This document shows positions 13,910 through 47,866 of a DNA stretch of 50,373 bases, one piece after another. The notes beneath the pieces are model-generated. The model did no database searches. It saw only the letters and a list, made by a program, of their open reading frames with translations, and had not been told where the DNA came from. Within the stretch, counting starts at the first letter, position 1; the number at the start of each line of letters is the position of its first letter. The translations under genes and the position numbers were made by a program. Source of the stretch: Candidatus Cloacimonetes bacterium HGW-Cloacimonetes-1 (GTDB lineage: Bacteria; Cloacimonadota; Cloacimonadia; Cloacimonadales; Cloacimonadaceae); contig PHBQ01000009.1 of NCBI GenBank assembly GCA_002841975.1, positions 1 through 50,373 on the forward strand. Direction: 5' to 3'.

Positions 13910-14728
13910 ATGATGCCCCAGCTGACGTGTATTGGTGACCGCATACCTTGTGCCAGAATAGATGCAGTGCATTCTCGATATGAGAGAACTGTAAATTTTC
14001 TGCATCAAGAGTCTTTGATCTCCCTGCATACTTTCAGCGATCCCAGGACCGCTCTGAGTGTTCATCTCGAAGGGATTGACCTCCCGTCTATTCGCAGCAT
14101 CGAACGTACACCAGATTCCTCTTTGATCCTCAATGACCAGATCAAGCTGGATTTCGATGAGAGGCATATATATCCCGCATCTGCCTTTGAACACGCTGCC
14201 CGTCAGAGCTTTCCCACTGCTCTCGATGTTTCAGCTTTGCAAGCTCTCCTCCTGCGGCAGATCATTGACAATCCACTGCTGGTAACTTTATCCGGAGTAT
14301 TGTCCTGCTCCGGCATCTTTGACCGGGTTGTAGAACTGAAATTTAGAGCAGCATGGAATTATTGGCAACAAGGACAATACCTTACTACAGCTTTATCATT
14401 CAAGGGACGTGGCAAAGGCAGCAGTCCTGCCGGCGACGATTTTCTGTGTGGTTTATTACTGGGCCTGAAAACCCGTGAATATTCCGAAGGTGCCGATTTT
14501 TCAAATATCCGGACGGTTGTGTTTGAAGCTGCGTTGGGTAACAATCTGATCGTCAATACGCTACTAAATCATGCTTATCAGGGTTGGGCCGATAGCGATT
14601 TTGTGGCTTTGGTACAATCCTTGAACAACGACAGTAATGGCCTGCACTCCGCAGTTCAAAAGATCCTGATGCACGGCAGTAGTTCCGGAGCAGACAGTCT
14701 TTTGGGTTTCGTAGGTGCCTGGTCGTAA
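13910..14728 (+). CDS. DUF2877 protein (AllH/YlbF-like)
   Basis: 272 residues. Two family signatures are present: FKGRGKGSSPAGDDFLCGLL (about 163-182), matching the G-x-G-x-x-P-S-GDD core, and GSSSGADSLLGF near the C-terminus. In E. coli the DUF2877 protein AllH is one of three gene products required for oxamate carbamoyltransferase, together with FdrA (AllF) and a DUF1116 protein (AllG). Here the FdrA- and DUF1116-like genes follow directly. The start is uncertain: an in-frame stop (13904-13906) excludes upstream starts, and AGGAG (13905-13909) touches the first ATG, so ATG 13913 or a rarer codon downstream may be used. It is the first gene of a nine-gene operon. Confidence 0.82.
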   Translation: MMPQLTCIGDRIPCARIDAVHSRYERTVNFLHQESLISLHTFSDPRTALSVHLEGIDLPSIRSIERTPDSSLILNDQIKLDFDERHIYPASAFEHAARQSFPTALDVSALQALLLRQIIDNPLLVTLSGVLSCSGIFDRVVELKFRAAWNYWQQGQYLTTALSFKGRGKGSSPAGDDFLCGLLLGLKTREYSEGADFSNIRTVVFEAALGNNLIVNTLLNHAYQGWADSDFVALVQSLNNDSNGLHSAVQKILMHGSSSGADSLLGFVGAWS

Positions 14729-14741
14729 AATAGGAAGTAAT

Positions 14742-16280
14742 ATGTTTATTCAGACTCACATCTTGGACGGCAAATATCTCGATTCCGTCAAACTGATGCT
14801 CATCTCCAAAGAATTGCGAAAGCTATCCGGTGTCACCGAAGCAGTTGCCATCACGGCTACCGTAGAAAACAAAGACATCCTGGAAGCCACCGGAATGCTG
14901 ACTGCAGAGTTCCAAAATGCTACACCCGGTGCGATTTATATCGCAGTGCATGCAGACCTCGCAGATGATGCCAAGCAGGCTATCAACACAGCTATGGACT
15001 GGATCGAACACGGCATCCCGGGAGAACATCGGGCCAATAGTCAAAAGACTGCCCGTTCTCTCTCCGGTGCCTTGGATGCGCTGCCGGAGGCCAAGCTGGC
15101 CTTGATCTCCGTGGCGGGGAAATATGCCGCACGGGAGGCGATGAAAGCTCTGGAAGCAGGGCTGCACGTCATGCTCTTTTCCGATAATGTATCCCTGGAA
15201 CAGGAACTAAGCCTGAAACAATATGCCGTCACAAACGGCTTACTGATGATGGGACCGGACTGCGGAACCGCAATTATAGACGGTGTCCCTTTGGCATTTG
15301 CCAATGTGGTGCGGAGCGGCAAGATCGGTATGGTCTCTGCTGCCGGAACCGGATTGCAGGCCGTGAGCAGCGAAATCCACAACCTGGGTGGTGGAATCTC
15401 CCAAGCCTTTGGAACCGGAGGACGCGATGGTAAGGCAGAAATCGGTGGGCTAATGCTCCTGCAATGCTTAGATTATCTCATTCAGGACAATGATACGGAA
15501 GTGATAGTTTTGATCGCCAAGTTGCCTCATCAGGGGGTGATAGATCAGCTTTTGAAGAGAATTCAAAAAACCACAAAGCCGGTAGTGATAAACTTCCTGA
15601 AGCAGTGCAGTTTACCGGAATATCCCAATCTGTATGTTACGGAAAGTCTGACGCAAACTGCTGTTCAGGCATATAAATTGTGGAAAGCGGATGCCACGGC
15701 AACTCCTCCAGAGCTGAAAGCGGAAACGACGCTTCCGATGCCCACCTCGCCACTGCGTAAGTATTTGCGGGGACTTTACTCCGGTGGAACCCTGTGTTTT
15801 GAGGCTCAAGGTCTATTTGCTGCCGCTACCGGTATCACGTGTGAGAGCAATGCACCGATCGACGCTGCCAATACCATGGCAGACGTGTGGCATAGCAGTG
15901 GACACAGCATTATCGACGTCGGTGCCGATGAATTTACCGTGGGAAGACCACATCCGATGATAGATTATTCTTTGCGTCTCAAGATGTTGGAAGCGGAAGC
16001 ACAGCACAAAGATGTGGCAGTATTACTCTTTGATGTGGTACTGGGTTATGGAGCACACTCTGCGCCTCATCTGGAACTGATCCCCGTGCTCAAACAGATC
16101 AAACGTGATACCTGTATCGTGATGATTGCCAGCGTGATCGGAACGGACTTGGATCCCCAAAACAGGATGGAAGTCGTCACTGCCCTCCGCGATGCGGGAG
16201 CAGTGGTTTGCACCGGCAATGCCGAAGCGGTTGCTTTGGCTGCCACTGTCATAAATTATGTCTCAAGGAATTCACAATGA
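14742..16280 (+). CDS. FdrA-like protein (AllF-related, acyl-CoA-synthetase fold)
   Basis: 512 residues. The succinyl-CoA-synthetase-like Rossmann core carries GPDCGTAIIDGVPLAFAN (171-188), GMVSAAGTGLQAV (196-208) and GGGISQAFGTGGRD (216-229), all FdrA hallmarks. A second ligase-like domain follows with IIDVGADEFTVGRPHPMID, also typical. E. coli FdrA (AllF) acts with AllG and AllH as an oxamate carbamoyltransferase, which makes or uses carbamoyl phosphate. The same triad is present here. ATG 14742 is chosen because AGGAAG lies 6 bp upstream; the frame is open from 14715. It overlaps the next gene by ATGA. The exact carbamoyl acceptor in this organism is unknown. Confidence 0.88.
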   Translation: MFIQTHILDGKYLDSVKLMLISKELRKLSGVTEAVAITATVENKDILEATGMLTAEFQNATPGAIYIAVHADLADDAKQAINTAMDWIEHGIPGEHRANSQKTARSLSGALDALPEAKLALISVAGKYAAREAMKALEAGLHVMLFSDNVSLEQELSLKQYAVTNGLLMMGPDCGTAIIDGVPLAFANVVRSGKIGMVSAAGTGLQAVSSEIHNLGGGISQAFGTGGRDGKAEIGGLMLLQCLDYLIQDNDTEVIVLIAKLPHQGVIDQLLKRIQKTTKPVVINFLKQCSLPEYPNLYVTESLTQTAVQAYKLWKADATATPPELKAETTLPMPTSPLRKYLRGLYSGGTLCFEAQGLFAAATGITCESNAPIDAANTMADVWHSSGHSIIDVGADEFTVGRPHPMIDYSLRLKMLEAEAQHKDVAVLLFDVVLGYGAHSAPHLELIPVLKQIKRDTCIVMIASVIGTDLDPQNRMEVVTALRDAGAVVCTGNAEAVALAATVINYVSRNSQ

Positions 16281-17665
16281 AAGATTTTTCAGATCTCAAG
16301 GTTGTAAATATAGGACTCGAATCGTTTGCTCAAGATCTGGTGAAGCAGGGCGTTCCCGCCATTCAGGTCAAATGGTCTCCTCCGGCAGCTGTGCCCTCCG
16401 CTGCGTTGGACCGCATAACTGCCAGCCAGGATGTGATCGACATCGCCAACCGTAAAGTTATCGATATTATTCAAGCCGGTGCACCCGTGCTTTTGGGCTT
16501 GGACATTGCCCTCAAAGTGATCCCGGGAATGCACTCCAAGCTGATTTTGCATGCCGGACCTCCCATCACTTGGGAACGGATGTGTGGACCGATGCGTGGT
16601 GCCATCATGGGCGCCTTGATCTATGAAGGTTTGGCACCCGATGCCGATGCTGCCGAAGCTCTGGCCGCCTCCGGTGAGATCGAGTATTCCCCCTGTCACG
16701 AACACAACGCCGTGGGTCCCATGGCAGGGATCATCTCGGCTTCGATGCCGGTGTTTATCGTGCAGAACGAAAGCTCTGGCAATTATGCCTATTGCACCCA
16801 GAATGAAGGGCTGGGAAAGGTGCTCCGCTATGGCGCATTTTCCCCCGAAGTAGTATCCAAACTGAAGTGGATGCAGGACAGCCTCTACCCCATTCTGGAC
16901 AAAGCTATCCGCTCCCTCGGCAAGATCGATCTCAAAAGTTTGATTGCTCAAGCGCTGCACATGGGAGACGAGGTTCACAACCGTAACCGTGCCGGTACAT
17001 CGCTCCTGATCCGCCAGTTAGCTCCTGCTATTCTGCGTACATCGGATTCTATGGAGGAATCTGCCAAAGCACTGGAATTTATCAATGGTAACGACCACTT
17101 TTTCCTCAATCTTTCCATGCCTGCCGCAAAGTGCATTTTGGATGCCGCAGCAGGAATCGAACATAGCAGCATCCTCACGTGTATGGCTCGTAATGGCACA
17201 GACTTTGGCATCCGCCTCTCCGGCACCGGCAATGAATGGTTTACCGGCAAAGCCCTGGTTCCGGATGCGCTCTATTTCCCGGGCTACACAAAGGATGATG
17301 CCAATCCAGATATTGGCGATAGTGCTATCACAGAATCCGTGGGCTGGGGTGGTTTTGCCATCGCCGCCGCACCGGCAATCGTCCAGTTTGTGGGCGGAAA
17401 TGCTGCCGACGCTCTCTCTTATACGCAACAGATGTATGAGATTAGCGCGTCCGAACATCAAAATTATCAGATCCCGGCTTTGGACTTCCGTGGTACTCCG
17501 CTGGGAATCGACGTTGTAAAAGTAATCAATAACAATCTGACTCCCTTTATCGACACCGGTGTAGCTCACAAGAATCCAGGCATCGGACAGGTCGGAGCGG
17601 GAGTCGTATCTGCACCAATCGAGCCTTTTATCAAGGCTTTTGAAAAATTTGCCCACATATTATAG
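16277..17665 (+). CDS. DUF1116 protein (AllG/YlbE-like)
   Basis: 462 residues, family length. Recognisable segments are HAGPPITWERMCGPMRGAI (95-113), a conserved block with SPCHEHNAVGPMAG, and NGTDFGIRLSGTGNEWFTG followed by GDSAITESVGWGGFA, all characteristic of DUF1116. It is soluble, with no signal peptide. In E. coli the family member AllG is part of oxamate carbamoyltransferase with AllF and AllH. The start at 16277 uses AAGGAATT upstream and the ATGA overlap with the fdrA-like stop; the longer frame from 16208 lies inside that gene. Close coupling to the FdrA-like subunit suggests a complex with fixed stoichiometry. Confidence 0.88.
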   Translation: MKDFSDLKVVNIGLESFAQDLVKQGVPAIQVKWSPPAAVPSAALDRITASQDVIDIANRKVIDIIQAGAPVLLGLDIALKVIPGMHSKLILHAGPPITWERMCGPMRGAIMGALIYEGLAPDADAAEALAASGEIEYSPCHEHNAVGPMAGIISASMPVFIVQNESSGNYAYCTQNEGLGKVLRYGAFSPEVVSKLKWMQDSLYPILDKAIRSLGKIDLKSLIAQALHMGDEVHNRNRAGTSLLIRQLAPAILRTSDSMEESAKALEFINGNDHFFLNLSMPAAKCILDAAAGIEHSSILTCMARNGTDFGIRLSGTGNEWFTGKALVPDALYFPGYTKDDANPDIGDSAITESVGWGGFAIAAAPAIVQFVGGNAADALSYTQQMYEISASEHQNYQIPALDFRGTPLGIDVVKVINNNLTPFIDTGVAHKNPGIGQVGAGVVSAPIEPFIKAFEKFAHIL

Positions 17666-17673
17666 GAGATATT

Positions 17674-18486
17674 ATGAATTCACAAGATTTTATGCAACTC
17701 ATGAGCACAGTCAAGATCTATGATCTCACCCAAAGACTCAGCATTCACACTCCCCCCTGGCCATCTTATATGCCTCTGGGGATTCAATACTTCAAACGCC
17801 TTGCCGGTGCCCATCAAGGACAGGGTGCAAACGGCCAGATCATCCAGACCAGTAACCACGTGGGAACTCATATCGATGGTGAAATCCATTTCTTTGCCAG
17901 CGGCAGAACGATCGGTAACGTCCCTATCGAGGAATGGGTAGGAAACGGCGTGGTCGTCGATATCTCGGACAGCGTGGGTGATTATGATCTATATTCTCCG
18001 GAATTGCTGATGCAAAAGGCAGATATCCGTAAAGGTGATATCCTGATCATCAACACAGGCTATCACAGATACTCCTGGGATCAGCCGGAAAGTGACGAGA
18101 TTCGCTATTTTGTCAAACACCCCGGTCCCAATCGGGATTTCCATACCTGGGCTCTGGATATGCAGATCAAATGGATCGGAGTAGATTGCGGTTCTGCCGA
18201 TCACCCCATGAACACCATCATCCGCACCTGGCATCCCAAAGCATTTGTGGAAGCAGACAAAAAGCTGATGGAAACCTATGGCCAGAGCTGGGATGAGATG
18301 TTCCCTACCGAAGAATTTTATCAAGTGATGCACCTCAAACTCTTCCCCCAAAAGCTGGTGCATGCCGAGAACCTGGGTGGCGAGATTGCAAAACTGAGCA
18401 ACAAACGGGTTTGGATCGGACTCTTCCCCTTAAGAGGGATCGAGCTTGAATCCTCGATGTGCCGCATAGTGGCAATGGAGCCCTAA
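17674..18486 (+). CDS. Cyclase-family metal-dependent hydrolase
   Basis: 270 residues of PF04199, the family of kynurenine formamidase and isatin hydrolase. The metal motif HVGTHIDGEIHF gives ligands H62, H66, D68 and H72; the proline usually between D68 and H72 is replaced by glutamate. DILIINTGYHRY, GVDCGSADHP and the C-terminal FPLRGIELESSMCRI also match the family. Known members hydrolyse amide or lactam bonds, often opening a ring. In this operon it is the natural candidate for opening the product of the molybdenum hydroxylase or for splitting a formyl/carbamoyl amide. GGAG precedes the ATG, 9 bp after the previous stop. Confidence 0.88.
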   Translation: MNSQDFMQLMSTVKIYDLTQRLSIHTPPWPSYMPLGIQYFKRLAGAHQGQGANGQIIQTSNHVGTHIDGEIHFFASGRTIGNVPIEEWVGNGVVVDISDSVGDYDLYSPELLMQKADIRKGDILIINTGYHRYSWDQPESDEIRYFVKHPGPNRDFHTWALDMQIKWIGVDCGSADHPMNTIIRTWHPKAFVEADKKLMETYGQSWDEMFPTEEFYQVMHLKLFPQKLVHAENLGGEIAKLSNKRVWIGLFPLRGIELESSMCRIVAMEP

Positions 18487-19379
18487 TGGCATTCTCACAC
18501 AGCTTTGAATATTTCAGGCCGGGGACTCTTGCCGAGGCTCTGAGCCTGCTGGACCAGTACAAAGGTGATGCCCGACTGCTGGCTGGAGGTACCGATCTGG
18601 CCGTCCATATCAAGGAAAACATGGCTACACCTCCTGTAGTGATCGATGTTAAGCGAGTCACAGACTTCCCGGGTTCCCGGGTTTCTCCCAAAGCGCTTTA
18701 TCTGAATGCCAGTACCACATTTAGTGATATAGTCAATCATGCAGATCTGCGCAAGGCGTATCCGATGTTATGGGAAGCTGCACGCTCCGTAGCATCCGTC
18801 GGAATCCGTAATCGTGCCACGCTGGCAGGAAACATCTGCTCCGCTGTTCCATCCTTGGATGTTGCGCCTGCACTATTGTGTTACGATGCTATCGTGCATG
18901 TGGCTTCCTCCTCCGGAACCCGAGAGATTTCTATCCACGATTGGTTTATCTCCCCCCGCAAAACAGCTTGCTTGGGAACCGAGATCATGCTCGGAATCAG
19001 CATCACCGCTCCAGCAGTGAAGCATTCAGGGATATACCTAAAGCAGGGACGCTATCGGGGTGAAGACCTTGCTCAAGCCGGACTGGGTGTGCTGATTACA
19101 TCCGACCTGCAATATCGTTTGGCATATTGTGCAGTAGGACCGATACCATTTCGGGCTCGTGCTATCGAAGCAGTCCTCAATGGGAAAGTTCTCACTGCCG
19201 AGCTGATAAGCTCTGCCAAAGCAATGGTGCAGGACACTGTGCATCCGATCACGGATATCCGCTCCAGCAAAGAATATCGTCTGCACATCTGTGAAGTAAT
19301 GCTGGAACGTGGACTCAAGGCTGTGGAACAGCGTTTGAACGGTGCAGAATTTGACAGCGCTGAGATCTTGGGAGGATAA
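18486..19379 (+). CDS. Molybdenum hydroxylase, FAD-binding subunit (XdhB/CoxM type)
   Basis: 297 residues. LLAGGTDLAVHIK (about 34-46) and SVGIRNRATLAGNICSAVPS (about 105-124) are the two FAD-binding signatures of the xanthine dehydrogenase medium subunit; the C-terminal CO-dehydrogenase-flavoprotein domain follows. It passes electrons from the Fe-S subunit to an acceptor. The start codon overlaps the cyclase stop (TAATG). With the next two genes it makes a complete hydroxylase of the xanthine dehydrogenase family. Confidence 0.92.
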   Translation: MAFSHSFEYFRPGTLAEALSLLDQYKGDARLLAGGTDLAVHIKENMATPPVVIDVKRVTDFPGSRVSPKALYLNASTTFSDIVNHADLRKAYPMLWEAARSVASVGIRNRATLAGNICSAVPSLDVAPALLCYDAIVHVASSSGTREISIHDWFISPRKTACLGTEIMLGISITAPAVKHSGIYLKQGRYRGEDLAQAGLGVLITSDLQYRLAYCAVGPIPFRARAIEAVLNGKVLTAELISSAKAMVQDTVHPITDIRSSKEYRLHICEVMLERGLKAVEQRLNGAEFDSAEILGG

Positions 19380-19380
19380 T

Positions 19381-19845
19381 ATGGCAAAAGTAAAATTAAC
19401 TCTTAACAACGAAACCCGCACTATAGATGTAGAGCCTTGTGAGACCCTTCTGGACGTCCTGCGCGACAAGCTGGGGATGAAAAGCCCTAAATGCGGCTGT
19501 GATCGTGGTGATTGCGGTGCTTGTGCCGTCCTGATCGATGGCAAGAGCGTACGCAGCTGCCTGATCTTTGCTATCGAATGCGAAGGTCAACACATCACAA
19601 CCCTGGAGGGAATCTCCGGTGATCAGCTCAGTATCTTACAAGAAGCATTCATCGAGTTCAATTCCTTTCAATGTGGATATTGTGCACCCGGCGTCATCAT
19701 TTCCGCCACGGAACTGCTGAAAAGCAATCCCCATCCTAATCTGGAAGAGATCAAAGAAGCACTTTCCGGCAATCTGTGCAGATGCACGGGATATCAGCCG
19801 ATCTTTGATGCCATCCTCAAGGCCAGCAAGGAGACAAAGAAATGA
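19381..19845 (+). CDS. Molybdenum hydroxylase, [2Fe-2S] subunit (XdhC/CoxS type)
   Basis: 154 residues with both clusters intact. The plant-ferredoxin cluster uses C40, C45, C48 and C60 (CDRGDCGAC and RSC); the second cluster uses C98, C101, C133 and C135 (QCGYCAPG and NLCRCTG). It relays electrons from the molybdenum centre to the flavin. ATG 19381 has GGGAGG at 9 bp; the frame extends upstream into the previous gene without support. It ends with an ATGA overlap with the large subunit. Confidence 0.95.
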   Translation: MAKVKLTLNNETRTIDVEPCETLLDVLRDKLGMKSPKCGCDRGDCGACAVLIDGKSVRSCLIFAIECEGQHITTLEGISGDQLSILQEAFIEFNSFQCGYCAPGVIISATELLKSNPHPNLEEIKEALSGNLCRCTGYQPIFDAILKASKETKK

Positions 19846-22187
19846 CGGACTATCGTTACATAGGCAAATCCATCACCCGCATCGATGGCAGAGAAAAGAT
19901 CTCCGGTGCTGCAGTTTATACGGATGATATCGACTTTGGTGCCAACCTCCTGTATGCCGAAATCGTCTCCAGTACTGTAGCTCATGCCCTGATCCTGAAT
20001 ATCGACACCAGTGAAGCTGAAAAGCTCGAAGGAGTCGTCAAAGTATTCACCGGTAAGGACTTCCCCTACAAGTTTGGCCTCTATATGAAAGACCGCTACA
20101 TCTTTGCCCAGGATAAAGTCCGCTTTTATGGCGAGCAAGTCGCAGCCGTGGTGGCCAGAACACCTCAAATAGCCAAAATGGGCGCGGAACTGGTCAAGGT
20201 CGAATACCAGGAACTTCCCGCAGTTTTAGACCAAATGGAAGCTCTTGCCGAGGGTGCCACGATCTTACATCCGGATTTGGGGGATTATCCCCATGTCCCG
20301 TGGTTTTTCCCCAAACCCGGCACCAATGTGGCACACTGGCGTAAAACCCGCCGTGGCGACTTGGAAAACGGCTTTGCCGAAGCAGACCACATCTATGAAG
20401 AAACTTACGAAGTCCCCCGTTATGCCCATTGCGCCATCGAAACCCATGTCGCCATCGGAAAGTTCGACTACTCCGGACGCTTGACTGTCTGGAGCTCTTC
20501 CCAGTCTCCTCACACCCAGCGCAATCTCTTTGCCGAAGCCTTGGCTCCGATGGGGCTCAGTCAAAAGGACATCCGCGTCATCACTCCCCACGTAGGCGGT
20601 GGTTTTGGCGGAAAGGCCGGCGTCACGATGGAAATCCTGCCAGCTGCTCTGGCGACCAAACTGCGCGGTTATGCCGTGAAACTGCGTTGGACTCGGGAAC
20701 AAGAATTTATCAATACTTATCAGCGTCTTGGCGTAGTCGCCAAGCTGAAACTAGGCGTCAAAAAAGACGGCACTATCACCGCCCTCGATCACAAGATTTA
20801 TTGGGATGCCGGTGCTTATGTGGAATATGGTGCCAATGTCGTCAATGCTGTGGGACTCTCCGCCATCGGACCCTATCGCATCCCCAATGTGTCGATAGAT
20901 TCCGTATGTATCTACACCAATCTCCCGCCCGGCGGTGCATACCGTGGATTTGGTTATTCCGAAATGCTCTTTGGACTGGAATCTCATATCACCACTATCG
21001 CCAGACAGATTGGCATGGACGAGATCGAATTCCGCCGCAAGAATGCCATTCTCGAAGGGGACAAAACTGCCTATGGTGCAGCAATGAACCCCAACGGACT
21101 GTTGGAAGCCATCGATAAAGTTACCAAGGCCATCGAGTGGGACAAAGAATACAAGAGTACGGATCCCAACAAAGTAATAGGCAAGGGTTTCTCGCTCTTT
21201 TGGAAAGCTCCTGCCATGCCACCTAATGCCTCATCATCTGCCTTTTTAAAGTTCAATGAGGATGCCAGCATCAATCTCATCATCTCCGGCATGGATATCG
21301 GCCAGGGTTATCAGACCGTGATGGCTCAGATCGCCGCCGAAGTATTGGGTGTAGATCCCTCCAAGATCCGGGTCGAAACTCCGGATACCGATCGTAACCC
21401 CTACGAATGGCAGACCGTGGCATCCCACATCACTTGGAGCAGCGGTAATGCCGTCAAAAAAGCCGCCATCGATGCCCGGGACCAGATCCTGGCATTGGTG
21501 GAACGCGTCTATCACATGTCCCAGGACAGTCTCTATCTCGAAGATGAAGCAGTAAAATGCCACAATCAAGCCTCGTTCAATCTACCCTTGCGGAGCTTTG
21601 TCGTAGAAGGCATAGCCACCAAAGATGGCAGTTATCGGGGAGGTCCCATCAATGGCAGAGGCATGTTTATGCCGGAATTCTCTTCCGCCAGCGGAGATCC
21701 CGACACCAGTCAGGGCGGACACCCTAACGTCCATTATACCGTTGGTGCCGGTGCCTTGATCCTCGAGATCGATAAAGACACGGGAAAGATGAAAGTCCTG
21801 AAAGCAGCCGAAGCCATCGACGCCGGAAAAGCCCTGAACCCGGACCTGATCAAAGGTCAGATCACCGGCGGACTCCTGCAGGGACTGGCAACCGTGCTTT
21901 ATGAAGACATGCGTTACGACGACAAAGGCAGGCTGCTCAACCCCAATTTTACAGATTACAAGATTCCGACAGCTATGGATGTCCCGGACGAGATCATCCC
22001 GATCATCATCGAAGTTCCTCAGCCCGATGGCCCCTATGGAGCCCGGGGAGTAGGAGAGCACACGATGTTGCCGGCAGCACCGATGATTGCCAATGCCGTG
22101 GAGAATGCCCTGGGTATTCGCATCCGCAGCATGCCTATCACGGCAGAAAAGGTAGCCATGGCATATAAAAAGCACAGGGAGCAATAG
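19842..22187 (+). CDS. Molybdenum hydroxylase, molybdopterin-binding catalytic subunit (XdhA/CoxL type)
   Basis: 781 residues. It begins GKSITRIDGREKISGAAVYTDD, standard for the family. GGGFGGKAG (about 252-260) and PPGGAYRGFGYSEM (about 362-375) are cofactor-binding loops. ARGVGEHT contains the catalytic glutamate, E739, that starts hydroxylation. The AYRGFG loop is of the xanthine dehydrogenase/aldehyde oxidase type and is not the selanyl-cysteine loop of aerobic CO dehydrogenase. Substrates of such enzymes are N-heterocycles or aldehydes. No XdhC-type cofactor-insertion gene is in the cluster. The neighbours (cyclase, amidase, carbamoyltransferase-like triad) favour a nitrogen heterocycle, but the actual substrate is unknown. 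Confidence 0.93.
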   Translation: MTDYRYIGKSITRIDGREKISGAAVYTDDIDFGANLLYAEIVSSTVAHALILNIDTSEAEKLEGVVKVFTGKDFPYKFGLYMKDRYIFAQDKVRFYGEQVAAVVARTPQIAKMGAELVKVEYQELPAVLDQMEALAEGATILHPDLGDYPHVPWFFPKPGTNVAHWRKTRRGDLENGFAEADHIYEETYEVPRYAHCAIETHVAIGKFDYSGRLTVWSSSQSPHTQRNLFAEALAPMGLSQKDIRVITPHVGGGFGGKAGVTMEILPAALATKLRGYAVKLRWTREQEFINTYQRLGVVAKLKLGVKKDGTITALDHKIYWDAGAYVEYGANVVNAVGLSAIGPYRIPNVSIDSVCIYTNLPPGGAYRGFGYSEMLFGLESHITTIARQIGMDEIEFRRKNAILEGDKTAYGAAMNPNGLLEAIDKVTKAIEWDKEYKSTDPNKVIGKGFSLFWKAPAMPPNASSSAFLKFNEDASINLIISGMDIGQGYQTVMAQIAAEVLGVDPSKIRVETPDTDRNPYEWQTVASHITWSSGNAVKKAAIDARDQILALVERVYHMSQDSLYLEDEAVKCHNQASFNLPLRSFVVEGIATKDGSYRGGPINGRGMFMPEFSSASGDPDTSQGGHPNVHYTVGAGALILEIDKDTGKMKVLKAAEAIDAGKALNPDLIKGQITGGLLQGLATVLYEDMRYDDKGRLLNPNFTDYKIPTAMDVPDEIIPIIIEVPQPDGPYGARGVGEHTMLPAAPMIANAVENALGIRIRSMPITAEKVAMAYKKHREQ

Positions 22188-23378
22188 ATGCAAAAACCTT
22201 TGGAAAACATTCGTGTATTGGACCTCACCAGAGTTCTGGCAGGTCCTTTTTGCACGATGATAATGGCAGACCTTGGTGCCGAAATCATCAAGGTCGAAAT
22301 CCCCGGCAGTGGTGACGACTCCCGTGCCTTTGGCCCCTTTATCAACAAACGCAGCCTCTATTTTCTGAGTATTAACCGTGGGAAAAAGAGCATCTCCCTG
22401 AACCTGAAAAGCCAAAAGGGAAAAGACATCCTGCGGGACCTCGTCAAAGAGTGCGATGTAATAGTCGAAAACTATCGCCCCGGCACTATGGAAAAACTGG
22501 GCTTGGGCTATGAAGCCCTCAAAGAGATCAATCCCCGCCTCATCTATGCCGCCTCTTCCGGCTTTGGGCATAGCGGTCCCTATTCCACCAGACCTGCCTA
22601 CGACATCCTGGCTCAAGCCCTGGGTGGCGTGATGAGCATCACTGGCTGGCCGGAATGCGCCCCCACACGGGTCGGAATGTCTCTGGGTGATATCACGGCT
22701 TCCCTGTTTACAGCTATCGGAATCAATGCCGCGCTCTATCAACGGGAAAAGACCGGACTGGGGCAGAAGATCGATGTCTCCATGCTGGATTGCCAGGTTG
22801 CCATCCTCGAAAATGCGCTGGTGCGTTACCAGTCCGAGGGGACCAACCCCACCCCGATCGGGAATCGGCATCCTACAATCGCGCCCTTCCAAGCTTATGA
22901 AGCGCTGGACGACTTCTTTGTGATCGCCGTTGGTAACGACTCTCTGTGGGAGAGCTTTTGTACAGCTATGAAGCAACCGGATCTGGGACTGGACCCCCGC
23001 TTCAGTTCCAATAAACTGCGTTGTGACAATCTCAGCGAGTTAAACGACCTGCTGAATCCGCTTTTTGCCACAGAGCCATCAGAGCATTGGCTCCGGATCC
23101 TCGAGAATCATGGCATCCCCTGTGCCCCCATCAACAACGTTCAGAAAGTGATGGAAAACGAACAGATTCTCGCCCGCAATATGATCGTAGAGGTAGAAGA
23201 CAAGCTGGCAGGAACTATCAAGATTGCCGGTAACCCCATCAAAATGAGTACTTTGGCAGAAGAGCCCACCCGTCCTCCCATCCCGGAGATCGGCGAACAC
23301 AATTACGAAGTGTTTAGCACGATTTTGGGCATGAGCGCGGATGAAATCCAAAACTTGAAAGAAGAAGGAATCTGTTGA
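22188..23378 (+). CDS. CaiB/BaiF family (class III) CoA-transferase
   Basis: 396 residues. The start LENIRVLDLTRVLAGPFCTMIMADLGAE-type segment (5-32), VENYRPGTMEKLGLGY and the catalytic aspartate D139 in RPAYDILAQA are those of class III CoA-transferases (compare Asp169 of formyl-CoA transferase). It moves CoA between carboxylic acids. Its ATG follows the hydroxylase stop with no gap, so it belongs to the operon. It would activate an acid formed after ring opening, or remove CoA from one. Confidence 0.92.
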   Translation: MQKPLENIRVLDLTRVLAGPFCTMIMADLGAEIIKVEIPGSGDDSRAFGPFINKRSLYFLSINRGKKSISLNLKSQKGKDILRDLVKECDVIVENYRPGTMEKLGLGYEALKEINPRLIYAASSGFGHSGPYSTRPAYDILAQALGGVMSITGWPECAPTRVGMSLGDITASLFTAIGINAALYQREKTGLGQKIDVSMLDCQVAILENALVRYQSEGTNPTPIGNRHPTIAPFQAYEALDDFFVIAVGNDSLWESFCTAMKQPDLGLDPRFSSNKLRCDNLSELNDLLNPLFATEPSEHWLRILENHGIPCAPINNVQKVMENEQILARNMIVEVEDKLAGTIKIAGNPIKMSTLAEEPTRPPIPEIGEHNYEVFSTILGMSADEIQNLKEEGIC

Positions 23379-23379
23379 T

Positions 23380-24657
23380 ATGCTTGGCCCCAAAATCAAT
23401 CTCAAAGCCATCGCTCCCGACCGCGATTTGGCAGATTATATCTCGGTACTGTGCGAGCAGATTATTGAACTCGATCGTGATGTGCATGCACTACTGCCGG
23501 AACCGGAAAAAGCAGAGCGTATTCTGGACGATATCAACGAGCGTCCGGTGAACTCCGAATCGCCATTGCTTTTGGATGGATACGGTGTGGGGATCAAAGA
23601 CCTCTATAATGTACACGGACTTCCCACCCGAGCCGGATCACATTTGCCGCATCAGGTCTTTGCCGGTCTCGAGGCCAGCTCCGTGACCCGGCTCAAAGCT
23701 CAAGGTGCCATTGTCCTGGGTAAAACAGTCAGTACCGAATTTGCCTATTTTCAACCGGGCCCGACCACCAATCCCCTCTTCCCCGGTCATACTCCCGGCG
23801 GATCTTCCAGCGGTTCTGCCGCTGCCGTAGCTGCCGATATTTGCCCCATTGCACTGGGAACGCAGACCATTGCCTCTGTCATCCGTCCCGCTGCCTATTG
23901 TGGTGTGATCGGCTTCAAGCCCAGCCTGGGCAGGATCCCGATGGACGGAGTCTTCCCCTTTGCCCAATCTGTCGATACTATCGGCTATTTTGCCAAGGAA
24001 TTGGAGGAGATCATCAGTGTATCCAAGGTTTTGATCGAGGACTGGAATCCGGAAGCTGCTTCAACCGCAGGATTGCGTTTTGCTGTTCCATCTGATGAAT
24101 ATCTGGATCAATGCGAAGACGTGGTACGCGCACATTTTAATGCTACTATCGAACGACTCCAAGATGCAGGGATGCACGTCGTAGTAACTTCCATGTTTCA
24201 TGATATTGCGGAGATTAATAATTCGCACCGGCTAATCATTGCCCGGGAATTTGCCATCAATCACATGAAGCTTTTCCCCCAGTTCGATCACCTCTATGCT
24301 CCTCAGTCCATCGCACTTTACCATACGGGATCTGCCGTCACGGATCATGATTATCGGATGAATCTGGCGAAAATGGATGCCTATCGGGCACACATCGACA
24401 ATTTTACCACCACTCACAATATCAGCGCCTGGCTCAGTCCTGCCACTACCAGCCTTCCCCCCGAAGGATTGGAGTCCACAGGAAATCCACTTATGAGCCT
24501 GCCCTGGACCTACTGTGGCATGCCATCGCTCTGCCTGCCGTCCGGAAAAAGCCTCTCCGGACTGCCCCACGCCCTCCAGATCGTCTCTGCCAAAAACCGG
24601 GATGAACTGCTGCTCTACAGCGTGGCACCCGACCTGCTTCGGGTAATCTGCCAATAG
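23380..24657 (+). CDS. Amidase (amidase-signature family)
   Basis: 425 residues. The Ser-cisSer-Lys triad is visible: K73 in GVGIKDLYNV, the GGSSSGS loop at 140-146, and the nucleophile S166 in TQTIASVIRPAAYCG. The TQTIASVIRPA form, instead of the more common DTGGSIR, is shared by a subgroup that includes allophanate- and biuret-type hydrolases and malonamidase-like enzymes, but the substrate cannot be read from this. It starts one base after the CoA-transferase stop and closes the nine-gene operon. It probably hydrolyses an amide intermediate of the same pathway and releases ammonia. Confidence 0.92.
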   Translation: MLGPKINLKAIAPDRDLADYISVLCEQIIELDRDVHALLPEPEKAERILDDINERPVNSESPLLLDGYGVGIKDLYNVHGLPTRAGSHLPHQVFAGLEASSVTRLKAQGAIVLGKTVSTEFAYFQPGPTTNPLFPGHTPGGSSSGSAAAVAADICPIALGTQTIASVIRPAAYCGVIGFKPSLGRIPMDGVFPFAQSVDTIGYFAKELEEIISVSKVLIEDWNPEAASTAGLRFAVPSDEYLDQCEDVVRAHFNATIERLQDAGMHVVVTSMFHDIAEINNSHRLIIAREFAINHMKLFPQFDHLYAPQSIALYHTGSAVTDHDYRMNLAKMDAYRAHIDNFTTTHNISAWLSPATTSLPPEGLESTGNPLMSLPWTYCGMPSLCLPSGKSLSGLPHALQIVSAKNRDELLLYSVAPDLLRVICQ

Positions 24658-25000: not shown

Positions 25001-27601
25001 TCAATTGGACTCCATACCCTCTGTGACATGGATTACTGATCCTTGACCCCAGTCACATTCAGCGCTCAGAATGCCTGTCGGAGCGACAAAGATACGGACT
25101 CCCTCTTCCACTACGACCTTATCACCCAAACTCAAGGAAGCTCCGTCTCCAATATAGATCGATGCATTCTTCTTGATTCTGGTAGCATTTGTGAATGTTA
25201 CATTGATCCCCGGTTTAATAGTGATCTTGCCTTCTAATACCGCTTTGCCGGAGAGCACACAGTTTACCGATACATCCGGGGGAAGGGTTCCACACATTTC
25301 CAGCAGTTTACCATCACCGGGATTGATATCAATTCTGATTTGCGTGTCTTCTGGTCTATATATCTGCCCATCAAATGGATCATACAACCCGATGTGGGAC
25401 CCAAATATAGCTTCAGCTCCGAGAGACGGTACAAAAATCACGGTTTGGCTATCGGCGTCAATGAAGCTGTCATCTACGGGAAGTTGAACTACGGAGTTAT
25501 CTCCACCTGTTCTGAAAACTGCGCGGCGGTTGACCAGCATAAAACTGGGGGATAACTGATCATCACTGTAGTATCCGCACTGGACGTAGCCATTGTAATA
25601 GGGAGTTGGAGCACTCCCTGACGGCGCTGATGTATGCGGATCATGCACTCTCAGATCCTGCAAAAAATAGGGGCTCAGGTTTACTCCCTCAGTGCCACCG
25701 GATGTCATCAAGCAGTCAGCATCTTTCCAATTCTGCTGGCTCAAGTATGGCCCATAAACCGCAATCTTTTGATTGGCTACGCTCAGATGTTCAAAGGCAG
25801 AATCATCCTCGGGAGCGTGGATCCCGGTATAGTGGGATCCGTGCATCAGAGGTGCCAGTCTGTAATATTGCGCAGGGCTCGCTCCATACGGGTACGTCCC
25901 TGCGAGCAGCGCAAAATCCAAGATTCCATCGGCTGAATAGCAGAGCGGTAGCAGTTGGAGGCATTTATTCATACTCCGGGGAGGTTTGAAATATCTCCAC
26001 TGCAGAACGCCATTTGCAGTATCGGGGACATACTCCCCGAATGTTTGAGGTATGTAAATAATCTCGGTTTCTCTTACAGACAAGTCCTGGTTCAATCTCA
26101 CGGCTTGGGCAAGACTCTTATATGTCTTAGTTACAATCCGGTCTATTCTTTTCTGTACAGAAAGGGGATCAGAATCGTTATTCCAGCGGATTAAGTCTGT
26201 CGAGCCCCATTCTGCAAGCGGGTAGGCATCTACTGCTATGGCTCGGGGCTTTGCCTGTGCGAGGAAATTCAAGTAGTGTTCATAAATGTTGCCGTTGGGT
26301 TTTGTTATCCGCGCTCCCTCCAGGTTTATTGCAGTTAGCAACTGCGGACTGTCTTCCGATCCGTACACATTTTCCAGATAGCTTTCCACTTGATCATACA
26401 TCGCAAATTGGCCTTGGAAGGGCTCATCTTTGGTGTAATGATAGATTATATTGTCGCTGTTTGGCTGCGCTAGGATTTGATTCATTCTGGTTTCCAACAT
26501 AGTGAACACGTTGCTGCCGGATTTACTCAATCCCGCTTGGCGATGGTATTCATCTTCCAGCACTATGTAGTCCAGTTCCATCCGTCCATTTCCATGCCAA
26601 TAGATTTCGGGATTGATGTGAAGGAAGAAATCTCCAGCTCCATCTTTGCGTAGCAGATCGCTGGATGAAGCACTGGGAAACTCTATGTAGTATTCAAACA
26701 GTAGATTATTGCCATCTTGATCTGCATCTCTGGGGACGCTGCTATATTTATTGTTATAAATTGTAGTTCCTACTTCCGGATTCACAGGATGCAGATCAAG
26801 TTCTATGTAGTTGGCTGCGTCTTTGGTGTAGTCCATGAATTCGTGTTTACTTGCAATACCCTTCAGTACTTTGAGCTTGATGGTAGCGACTTCCGCCCCC
26901 ACTGTGAGGTCGCTATACTTCATGGCAACTGTGAAGTAAAGCTTGTTGTTTTTTATGTCGGATGGGAGGAATTTCAGATCATACCCGATTGACCGCGGAT
27001 AGGTATGTCCGGGTATTCTCCAGCGAAATCTGGGATTAGATAATGCCAAGCCCGGTTTGTGACCCAAAGCCTCATCACATTCCCACGTATATTGGTTGGA
27101 ATGGTTTCCGGGGCCTCTTCGTTTTCCGCAGGAAGGAGCATGGGCAAATACATAGTTGTACACGTCTCCCAAGCCGGTGGGATCCAGAGCGGTAGTGAGA
27201 TCATCCACAATAAACGTAAACAGGGTGTCATCCGGAGGGGTAAGATCATCAATATAGCGGTACATATACTCTGCTTCCAGTTTCAGATAGTTGCCATATG
27301 TGAGGCTGTGGATGCCCACCTGACCGGATGAAGGATCCCAATATCGGTCTTCCAAAATGGTTTTCACGTCACTTCCCAAAACTGTTAAGGCGGTACCAAG
27401 TCCATTGAGGTCTTGATCTTTGATCGACATTTTTACAGCATTGAAATGACCATCTAAGAGCTTGGTTTTCAGTGTGCTAATATTCGTCCCGGCGCCGGGA
27501 TTCCAGAGATCATACTGCGCGTATGCACCAATCATGAATTCAGTTGCCTGGCAGCTAAGCCATATCAAGGTTAGAAGTACTGCCAAACATACTTTTTTCA
27601 T
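25001..27601 (-). CDS. Large exported protein of unknown function
   Basis: 866 residues. The signal peptide is MKKVCLAVLLTLIWLSCQA; GGAGG stands 6 bp before this ATG, so the longer frame from 27634 is not used. Residues of about 230-330 are beta-rich with WHGNGRMELDY. The middle (about 390-560) has IIYHYTKDEPF, IAVDAYPLAEWG and IIYIPQTFGEYV, strands ending in acidic or aromatic residues that resemble a TIM-barrel glycosidase-like domain; this is only an impression. The C-terminal 100 residues have short repeated strands (GKAVLEGKITIKPGINVTF, then SIYIGDGASLSLGDKVVVEE) typical of a left-handed or bactofilin-like beta-helix. No Por sorting domain is visible. It stands alone. Confidence 0.7.
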   Translation of the reverse strand: MKKVCLAVLLTLIWLSCQATEFMIGAYAQYDLWNPGAGTNISTLKTKLLDGHFNAVKMSIKDQDLNGLGTALTVLGSDVKTILEDRYWDPSSGQVGIHSLTYGNYLKLEAEYMYRYIDDLTPPDDTLFTFIVDDLTTALDPTGLGDVYNYVFAHAPSCGKRRGPGNHSNQYTWECDEALGHKPGLALSNPRFRWRIPGHTYPRSIGYDLKFLPSDIKNNKLYFTVAMKYSDLTVGAEVATIKLKVLKGIASKHEFMDYTKDAANYIELDLHPVNPEVGTTIYNNKYSSVPRDADQDGNNLLFEYYIEFPSASSSDLLRKDGAGDFFLHINPEIYWHGNGRMELDYIVLEDEYHRQAGLSKSGSNVFTMLETRMNQILAQPNSDNIIYHYTKDEPFQGQFAMYDQVESYLENVYGSEDSPQLLTAINLEGARITKPNGNIYEHYLNFLAQAKPRAIAVDAYPLAEWGSTDLIRWNNDSDPLSVQKRIDRIVTKTYKSLAQAVRLNQDLSVRETEIIYIPQTFGEYVPDTANGVLQWRYFKPPRSMNKCLQLLPLCYSADGILDFALLAGTYPYGASPAQYYRLAPLMHGSHYTGIHAPEDDSAFEHLSVANQKIAVYGPYLSQQNWKDADCLMTSGGTEGVNLSPYFLQDLRVHDPHTSAPSGSAPTPYYNGYVQCGYYSDDQLSPSFMLVNRRAVFRTGGDNSVVQLPVDDSFIDADSQTVIFVPSLGAEAIFGSHIGLYDPFDGQIYRPEDTQIRIDINPGDGKLLEMCGTLPPDVSVNCVLSGKAVLEGKITIKPGINVTFTNATRIKKNASIYIGDGASLSLGDKVVVEEGVRIFVAPTGILSAECDWGQGSVIHVTEGMESN

Positions 27602-27761
27602 CTTGCCTCCATCGACGTTTGTGGATGATAACATGCCAGATCTGGTATATCGCAGGCACTATGCCCGGTTTTATTGCGTTCAAGTCCTACAATAGTACTT
27701 TATACACTTCACTATTTTGGTCAAGTACGATTTTCCCCCTCTCCCGTACTGAATTTTGCAT

Positions 27762-46168: not shown

Positions 46169-47866
46169 ATGAGTTGGATTTACGGAAGCTTGTTCAAAGC
46201 TAAGCAACATGCACCACTGCCCGGGTACAAACTTCCTCTGGAAGAGTACCACTCTGATTTTATAGATATCTTTGCCGGAGGCAAGAGCCAAACCTTGCAG
46301 AGGATAGATCACCCCACGAAACCGAAGACTGTGGTCTTCTTACTGGGAAACCCGATCTTACGAGTACGGGACGATTATCGCTATCCTGATTCTGATGACT
46401 GGACACAGATTTTAGCATCCGAACAGAGCATTTGGGCATTGGATGGTCATTGGCTAATCCTCATTGTTGGTCCCGAGGGTGTGCTGGCATATAACGATTC
46501 GTTGTCCAAACGAACCATGTATTTTCATGAATCCCCCGACCGGGTGTTTTTTACCAACAATCTGCCCATCCTCCGCGACGAAGTTCATCCCCCGATCGAT
46601 TATGAACGCTTTGGGGCTTACTGGCATTCGATGTTCCCCCCATCTTTCGATCGCTATGCTCCCACCCAATCTTCTTACTATCAAGACATCGAGATGCTGG
46701 GTACGGGTGGTAAAGCCCAAATTTCAAAAACCGGAACTCTAACACTCTCAAACTGCCCCTGGACCCCTGTTTCGGAACCATATAACCTCAATACCCTGAT
46801 GGAAAATATGACACTGCTCCCCTACAGAGCCGGGAAAAGAGTCACTATTGGTCTTTCTGGCGGTATGGATTGTCGCCCACTGCTGGCACTATACCTAAAG
46901 CATAAGGTGCCGGTCAACGTTGTAAACTTGGGCTCGGACACATCTCAGGATCATCTGGTCGCCAAGAAAATCGCCTCTCACTTCGATCTCCCCTTCCGTC
47001 ATATCAGTTATGATGACGCCGGAGCTTCCTGGGACCAAGCGGTGGATTACGTACAAAACCGAGGTGTGGTTTTTAACCCCGCCAATAGTATCTTTATGGG
47101 TTATTACCCGATCCTGGCAGAGAATACGGATGTCTATATCAGTGGATATTTTGGCGAATTGTACCGGTTTCGCTTTATGGTGGCACATCTGAAGAGTTCC
47201 CTGCGCCAAGGTGCTCTGGACTATCATGCCATTGCAGACTATCTGTATGGCACTCCCCCTTCATTTTTCTCCACGGATACTACCCGCCGGATGCACCAAG
47301 GTTTTTGGCACAGTCTCAAATACGAGGTATCCAAAATGCCTTCCAGCCTGGATATGCCCAATGCAATGTGGATGAATTTGTTTTTAGTGCGCCACAGCCC
47401 CCGCTCTGTAAACATGCTCAATCTGGCATGGATCGATCAACACCTCGTGGATCACATGCCCTACCTGCAAAGTTCTATCATCAATGGACATTGGCGTTAT
47501 GGCTTTTGGAATCAGCTCAATGAAGGCTTGCATCGCAGCATTATTCGCGAGGCTTGCCCTGCCCTGGAGAACTTCCCGCTTGCCTTGGCAGATGCCAGTG
47601 CGCCCTATTACTATCGCCAATACGCCGTCAAAGTCAAGATGTGGCAATATTACCGCAAGAGACCCATGCGCATTACCAGCCGTTCCGATGCCTTTTTGGA
47701 GAAATACAAAGACCGCATCCTGGAAATTACTCAAGATCCATCCATCCGCAACGACAATGCCATCTCTACGGCAAAATTGGACGCCATAGTAAGTGCATAT
47801 TATCAGGGTGACAAATCTCTCACTGGGGCGATGACCGGATTTTTGGCTTTTGCCTTAGGAAAATAG
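46169..47866 (+). CDS. Asparagine-synthetase-like protein with degenerate glutaminase domain
   Basis: 565 residues. Residues of about 50-190 keep the shape of a class II glutamine amidotransferase domain (LDGHWLILIVGPEG, YNDSLSKRTMYFH in place of DRLG-x-x-PLYY), but there is no cysteine at position 2 (MSWIYG), so it cannot release ammonia from glutamine. Residues from about 215 form a PP-loop ATP-pyrophosphatase domain: GLSGGMDCRPLLALY (S220-D224; the usual last serine is cysteine) and ISGYFGELYRF. This combination is shared by beta-lactam synthetase-like and other amide-forming ligases. The substrate is unknown. AAGGAG precedes the ATG. The glycerate kinase gene begins 5 bp after it. Confidence 0.8.
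   Translation: MSWIYGSLFKAKQHAPLPGYKLPLEEYHSDFIDIFAGGKSQTLQRIDHPTKPKTVVFLLGNPILRVRDDYRYPDSDDWTQILASEQSIWALDGHWLILIVGPEGVLAYNDSLSKRTMYFHESPDRVFFTNNLPILRDEVHPPIDYERFGAYWHSMFPPSFDRYAPTQSSYYQDIEMLGTGGKAQISKTGTLTLSNCPWTPVSEPYNLNTLMENMTLLPYRAGKRVTIGLSGGMDCRPLLALYLKHKVPVNVVNLGSDTSQDHLVAKKIASHFDLPFRHISYDDAGASWDQAVDYVQNRGVVFNPANSIFMGYYPILAENTDVYISGYFGELYRFRFMVAHLKSSLRQGALDYHAIADYLYGTPPSFFSTDTTRRMHQGFWHSLKYEVSKMPSSLDMPNAMWMNLFLVRHSPRSVNMLNLAWIDQHLVDHMPYLQSSIINGHWRYGFWNQLNEGLHRSIIREACPALENFPLALADASAPYYYRQYAVKVKMWQYYRKRPMRITSRSDAFLEKYKDRILEITQDPSIRNDNAISTAKLDAIVSAYYQGDKSLTGAMTGFLAFALGK

Follow-up and report, generated by a model that had tools for sequence, protein, structure and literature searches.

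In Escherichia coli, AllFGH is the oxamic transcarbamylase of allantoin degradation and acts on oxalurate (PMC11326118). In the oxidative degradation of pyrimidines, uracil is converted to barbiturate, whose ring-opening product, ureidomalonate, gives malonate and urea (PMC3758960). Malonate, together with ammonia, is also what malonamidase E2 forms from malonamate (PMC8393822). We analysed a stretch of 50,373 nucleotides from Candidatus Cloacimonetes bacterium HGW-Cloacimonetes-1 (contig PHBQ01000009.1; hereafter the window), in which nine genes join a triad related to AllFGH (AllH, FdrA and AllG) to a cyclase-family metal hydrolase, the FAD, 2Fe-2S (FeS) and molybdopterin (Mo) subunits of a molybdenum hydroxylase, a class III CoA-transferase and an amidase. 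From their families and context we infer that these genes very likely serve a pathway that hydroxylates and opens a ring and yields carbamoyl phosphate. They probably constitute an anaerobic, energy-conserving form of oxidative pyrimidine degradation, leading from uracil to malonyl-CoA.

In the proposed route, the three-subunit hydroxylase would form barbiturate from uracil and water and hand two electrons to a carrier. The cyclase-family hydrolase, taking the place of the unrelated barbiturases of the AtzD/Bar type, would then open the ring to give ureidomalonate (3-oxo-3-ureidopropanoate). The FdrA-AllG-AllH complex would phosphorolyse ureidomalonate to malonamate and carbamoyl phosphate, which is the conversion of oxalurate to oxamate and carbamoyl phosphate with one CH2 more, and a carbamate kinase encoded elsewhere in the genome would yield ATP. 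The amidase would then hydrolyse malonamate to malonate and ammonia, and the CoA-transferase would convert malonate to malonyl-CoA. This end module varies by lineage, being an amidase with a CoA-transferase, a nitrilase-family amidase, or a GNAT-fold protein with a cysteine-less thiolase and a DUF35 protein. The proposed precursor of malonamate and carbamoyl phosphate is ureidomalonate, and therefore barbiturate, and hence uracil, would be the upstream compounds.

The nine genes are one conserved unit, grouped far above chance. We scanned the AllG of the window against 84,980 species genomes, which returned 235 relatives, and used the best 80 (58-77% identity) as loci. They span Cloacimonadota (the phylum of the window), Elusimicrobia, Eisenbacteria, Kiritimatiellae/Lentisphaerae, Bdellovibrio relatives, Spirochaetes, Acidobacteria, Bacteroidetes and others. 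The block AllH-FdrA-AllG-cyclase-FAD-FeS-Mo is retained in most of them, often interrupted by contig ends, and in many Elusimicrobia the hydroxylase genes precede the triad. Gene maps of single loci were used for recurring families only, open reading frame (ORF) calls being partly spurious in GC-rich loci. Across phyla, identity to the window is mostly 70-87% for the cyclase and 64-84% for the Mo subunit, with a few more distant members, and both are better conserved than the FAD subunit. The conserved-neighbourhood search that the first-pass annotation had proposed as a check thus recovered a seven-gene core across phyla, and within the phylum of the window the complete nine-gene order recurs in six regions (L130, L131, L133, L134, L136 and L137; L130 is the same genome as L002).

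The same annotation had held that regular separation of these genes in homologous clusters would speak against a common pathway, and such separation was not seen: AllG and the cyclase almost never part. In the phylum of the window the cyclase gene is present in 35 of 125 genomes and AllG in 34 of 123; 33 genomes carry both, one AllG only, two the cyclase only and about 87 neither (Fisher p ~2e-26, uncorrected for shared ancestry), and all three exceptions sit near contig ends. It could be argued that the block consists of two or more unrelated catabolic units that became neighbours by chance in this genome, since other lineages have different modules in place of the CoA-transferase and amidase. 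The co-occurrence of AllG and the cyclase within the phylum largely refutes this; the seven-gene core and the nine-gene order also speak against it, and we give the idea hardly any credence.

The triad is complete and adjacent in the window, and its assignment to the family of the E. coli oxamic transcarbamylase (PMC11326118) stands. FdrA exceeds the NCBIfam family cut-off (470 vs 433 bits) and carries the Pfam domains Ligase_CoA and CoA_binding, and AllH is the sole copy in the genome. Residues common to both E. coli paralogue sets are kept in the triad, many FdrA residues being invariant with both. The kinship claimed with AllFGH specifically held for the family, the three adjacent subunits and the shared residues, but not for the closest paralogue: FdrA is 39% identical to YahF and 38% to AllF, AllG is 49% identical to YahG and 46% to E. 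coli AllG, and the AllH subunit alone is closer to its E. coli namesake, over a short stretch. Because the uncharacterised YahF and YahG are the slightly nearer relatives of FdrA and AllG, the exact substrate of the triad should not be copied from E. coli. Consistent with ATP formation from carbamoyl phosphate, a carbamate kinase above its family cut-off is encoded in the genome of the window, and another lies inside the homologous operon of L079. The carbamate kinase in the genome of the window (L083, G000:C75:1-14000) adjoins genes that read by eye as pyrB, pyrC, pyrK and pyrD, a neighbourhood that suggests a link of the kinase with pyrimidine metabolism.

Clues to the carbon chain come from the end of the operon. 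Nine of the 80 loci carry the CoA-transferase and/or amidase of the window as their only end module, although two of these (L068 and L072) have just a minus-strand amidase that is apparently unlinked; 13 have a nitrilase-family gene, 20 at least one gene of a GNAT-fold/thiolase/DUF35 set, and one that set together with an amidase. In L062 and L070 an isochorismatase-family gene adjoins the triad instead. Since amide hydrolases interchange among the end modules, the step after the transcarbamylase is suggested to remove an amide. Of all solved structures, that of malonamidase E2 matches the amidase best (5e-42, 350 residues aligned; 1.5e-35 for the next-best other enzyme). The window amidase keeps the amidase-signature motifs and the Arg of SxxRPA, a motif that matches the SVIRPA of malonamidase E2 in 11 of 11 distinct cluster-linked amidases, while the two unlinked ones have SVRVPA. 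In malonamidase this Arg is reported to bind the substrate carboxylate. In the Elusimicrobia module, the nitrilase-family gene is closest to PRK10438 (YafV-like; 142 bits, below the cut-off of 249), an omega-amidase that acts on mono-amides of dicarboxylates.

The third module (c0-c1-c4) comprises a GNAT-fold protein that falls into none of the Pfam families, a cysteine-less thiolase-like protein and a DUF35-type protein. In 18 of 18 of its thiolases the nucleophilic Cys is replaced by Pro (ENGPASG) and both His motifs are kept (e.g. L031:5230-7511, L054:14718-16935 and at least 16 other loci). Loss of the nucleophilic Cys is known from decarboxylating ketosynthases of the KSQ type, which act on malonyl groups. 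The fold model of the GNAT-like c0 matches acetyltransferases generally and gives no specific pointer to a malonyl-CoA decarboxylase. Both the amidase and the thiolase clues, each indirect, point to a malonyl rather than an oxalyl chain.

These observations bear on the closest rival to uracil, in which the hydroxylase would convert hydantoin (or 5-hydroxyhydantoin) to parabanate, the cyclase would open this to oxalurate, the triad would give oxamate, the amidase oxalate and the CoA-transferase oxalyl-CoA. We hold this route unlikely, though it has real attractions: oxalurate is the substrate of E. coli AllFGH (PMC11326118), parabanate resembles isatin, on which one of the enzymes nearest to the cyclase in fold acts, and YfdE, the enzyme nearest to the CoA-transferase, is an acetyl-CoA:oxalate CoA-transferase. 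Yet the amidase resembles malonamidase, oxalyl compounds would offer the thiolase-fold module no beta-carbonyl, the permeases that adjoin related clusters are of the pyrimidine type, and no oxalyl-CoA decarboxylase was recognised among neighbouring genes (by eye) or recurrent clusters.

The first-pass annotation had left the substrate at an N-heterocycle; a ring pathway is retained, and the permease and amidase clues narrow it to a pyrimidine, most likely uracil. Among the nearby transporters that it had proposed looking for are NCS2 permeases, which adjoin the cluster in six of the 80 loci (in Cloacimonadota and relatives, Spirochaetes, Bryobacterales and a Clostridiales genome). In a comparison with UraA, RutG, XanQ and UacT, these permeases are 36-47% identical to UraA/RutG versus 22-31% to XanQ/UacT. 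Where the site is covered, in five of them, it always holds the Glu of TYxEN typical of pyrimidine permeases, which is Gln in XanQ/UacT.

Thymine, or another 5-substituted or modified pyrimidine, would fit the pyrimidine evidence equally well, and would lead by the same enzyme logic to methylmalonate-type or other products. In the known oxidative pathway a single dehydrogenase (EC 1.17.99.4) handles both uracil and thymine, which favours such a substrate. However, inspection of the neighbourhoods brought up no methylmalonyl-CoA enzyme, and the similarity to malonamidase E2 weakly favours an unsubstituted malonate chain; we regard this variant as improbable, somewhat more so than the hydantoin route.

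The hydroxylase belongs to the xanthine dehydrogenase (XDH) family, AllFGH is part of allantoin degradation, and L079 is flanked by PucR-like regulators, whose family is familiar from purine genes, so that the set might degrade xanthine, urate or allantoin derivatives. Purines were nevertheless rejected as the principal substrate on three grounds, and we consider them very improbable. First, the substrate-binding Glu of XDH (Glu802, after GGGFGGK) is Ala in every cluster member read. Second, the genome of the window has two other XDH-family loci: one retains this Glu, and the other lies within a separate cluster (L129, G000:C42:1-8000) of XDH subunits, a hydantoinase-like gene, the knotted carbamoyltransferase YgeW (above its cut-off) and a pyridoxal phosphate (PLP) enzyme, with a weakly scoring MocA-like NTP transferase. 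L129 looks like an anaerobic purine cluster. Third, the adjoining permeases are not of the XanQ/UacT type. In addition, no allantoinase, uricase or allantoate hydrolase was found among the proteins of the block with Pfam and NCBIfam.

Turning to the enzymes proposed for the first two steps, the nearest solved relative of the hydroxylase is 4-hydroxybenzoyl-CoA reductase, ahead of xanthine dehydrogenases, and the catalytic Glu and the Mo-side Gln of the SSQSP motif are kept in the members covering those sites. The metal motif HxGTHxDGxxH is conserved in 54 cyclase members. The fold model of the cyclase is nearest to isatin hydrolases and kynurenine formamidases, a match that we read at family level only (mean predicted local distance difference test, pLDDT, of 75, the poorly predicted stretch taking in part of the active site); the lactam that isatin hydrolase opens has a ketone next to it. 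With Pfam and NCBIfam, no match to the AtzD/Bar barbiturase family was obtained for any of the nine proteins, and the candidate ring opener is the Pfam Cyclase protein. The general scheme of the first-pass annotation, i.e. hydroxylation, opening and phosphorolysis, is well supported at the level of predicted activities. Its order of deamidation was revised: with malonamidase E2 as the closest solved relative of the amidase, this step is more likely to follow phosphorolysis than to precede it.

Several observations weigh against the uracil reading. The relationship between the amidase and malonamidase E2 is a distant one. The CoA-transferase has YfdE (44% identity) and SUGCT, enzymes of short dicarboxylates, as its nearest solved relatives, with a YfdE family score of 391 bits, below the cut-off of 522, and its closeness to an oxalate enzyme suits the oxalurate rival at least equally. 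Permeases flank only six of the 80 loci, some beyond other genes, and the genome of the window has no NCS2 permease, so uptake must differ there or the pyrimidine must have an internal source; this genome does encode a pyrimidine nucleoside phosphorylase. As no sequence of a uracil dehydrogenase was found in the accessible literature, the first step is not checkable by homology. Lastly, no MoaA C-terminal domain, MoaC or MoeA_N was detected in the genome of the window; unless the molybdenum cofactor (Moco) is salvaged, the hydroxylase may be without it.

The absence of Moco genes extends to the phylum. None of its cluster-bearing genomes has a detectable MoaA C-terminal domain, MoaC or MoeA, including that of L133, which is a single contig of 2.25 Mb. 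Among 123 genomes of the phylum, the MoaA C-terminal domain was found in two (weakly), MoaC in three and MoeA_N in two, all without the cluster, and the same searches were positive in 11 of 14 control genomes. MoaC is present in 16 of 30 genomes with related loci outside the phylum, a set of metagenome-assembled and draft genomes of which a few are themselves Cloacimonadota. The host of L079 carries MoaC. Either the cofactor is salvaged, or its genes have diverged past the models, or the enzyme works otherwise; a literature search on Moco salvage and on Cloacimonadota with Moco found nothing. It is conceivable, though on balance doubtful, that a widespread anaerobic uracil pathway (Mo hydroxylase, cyclase-family barbiturase and ureidomalonate transcarbamylase) operates in cells of this phylum that lack the known route of Moco synthesis, in which case the cofactor must be salvaged or made by a novel route.

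All nine genes run in the same direction (13910-24657, + strand) and fall into the families that had been named for them. The mechanical ORF starts were too early for FdrA, AllG, the FAD subunit and the FeS subunit, and all four were moved downstream. After correction, neighbours overlap or touch, or otherwise lie at most 13 bases apart. A purine-rich stretch directly precedes the revised ATGs of FdrA (14742) and the FeS subunit (19381), and the ATG of the FAD subunit (18486) overlaps the stop of the cyclase gene. Promoter and terminator pattern counts are close to those in shuffles, and hence the limits of the operon rest on gene order, not on signals.

Table 1. Genes of the predicted pyrimidine operon, with start-corrected coordinates in the window.
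Predicted product	Position	Strand	Support and remarks
AllH/DUF2877 subunit, oxamate-carbamoyltransferase-like complex (predicted)	13910..14728	+	Pfam PF11392, 78.6 bits, 7e-22
FdrA/AllF-like subunit, succinyl-CoA synthetase-like domains	14742..16280	+	ORF opens 14715; NCBIfam PRK06091
AllG/DUF1116 subunit	16277..17665	+	ORF opens 16208, likely ATG 16277; Pfam PF06545, 332 bits, 2e-99
Cyclase-family metal hydrolase, proposed barbiturate ring opener	17674..18486	+	Pfam PF04199, 1.5e-32
FAD subunit, molybdenum hydroxylase	18486..19379	+	ORF opens 18459; FAD_binding_5 PF00941, CO_deh_flav_C PF03450
2Fe-2S subunit, molybdenum hydroxylase	19381..19845	+	ORF opens 19342; Fer2_2 PF01799, Fer2 PF00111
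Molybdopterin subunit, proposed uracil (C6) hydroxylase	19842..22187	+	Pfam PF01315, PF02738, PF20256
Class III CoA-transferase, proposed malonate CoA-transferase	22188..23378	+	CoA_transf_3 PF02515, 444 bits, 7e-133
Amidase-signature hydrolase, proposed malonamidase	23380..24657	+	Pfam Amidase PF01425, 4e-61

On its 5' side the block is flanked by a gene of opposite orientation with a GyrI-like domain. An ORF of 877 amino acids 3' of the block (25001-27634, - strand), outside the operon, matches no Pfam or NCBIfam family, and another of 565 amino acids, also outside it (46169-47866, + strand), belongs to no Pfam family. Around the Elusimicrobia loci, the recurrent genes c2, c3 and c6-c10 look on inspection like translation genes (rimP, nusA, infB, rbfA, truB, ribF and others) and are mere neighbours; a dihydropyrimidinase-like gene (c13) lies on the opposite strand in most cases and was not used as evidence.

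Our searches on FdrA/DUF1116, barbiturase, ureidomalonate and oxidative pyrimidine degradation brought up the enzyme of E. coli, the classic pathway and a nitrifier study that mentions allFGH beside triuret genes; this cluster did not appear. In agreement with the first-pass annotation, we found no described pathway with this gene set in a search of mainly openly accessible literature, so that an earlier description is possible. If true, the proposal would stand as a further route beside the four known pyrimidine degradations, i.e. oxidative, reductive, Rut and URC (listed in PMC12507026), and explain a role outside allantoin use for a carbamoyltransferase family of largely unknown range. It would also provide uncultured bacteria, Cloacimonadota and Elusimicrobia among them, with an energy-saving pathway that can be tested. 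Independently of this, the absent cofactor genes raise a further question about molybdenum enzymes.

Compared with the oxidative pyrimidine pathway (PMC3758960), the proposed first intermediates are identical, but here the ring opener would be a cyclase-family enzyme and not a barbiturase of the AtzD/Bar type, and ureidomalonate would undergo phosphorolysis to malonamate and carbamoyl phosphate in place of the urea-forming ureidomalonase reaction. The E. coli AllFGH system shares the three protein families, many invariant residues and a carbamate kinase in the pathway, yet identity is only 38% (AllF) and 46% (AllG) and the genomic context is a Mo hydroxylase and a cyclase rather than allantoin genes. 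The uncharacterised yahEFG-yahI-yahJ genes of E. coli encode the closest paralogues of FdrA and AllG there and a carbamate kinase-like protein; they lack a Mo hydroxylase and a cyclase, and YahJ is an amidohydrolase. Finally, the reductive route by which E. coli and C. difficile degrade urate is likewise an anaerobic catabolism of bases that uses a Mo hydroxylase, and in E. coli the carbamoyltransferase YgeW makes carbamoyl phosphate for ATP (PMC12507026). That carbamoyltransferase belongs to another family, however, and a cluster for this kind of pathway forms a separate locus in the genome of the window.

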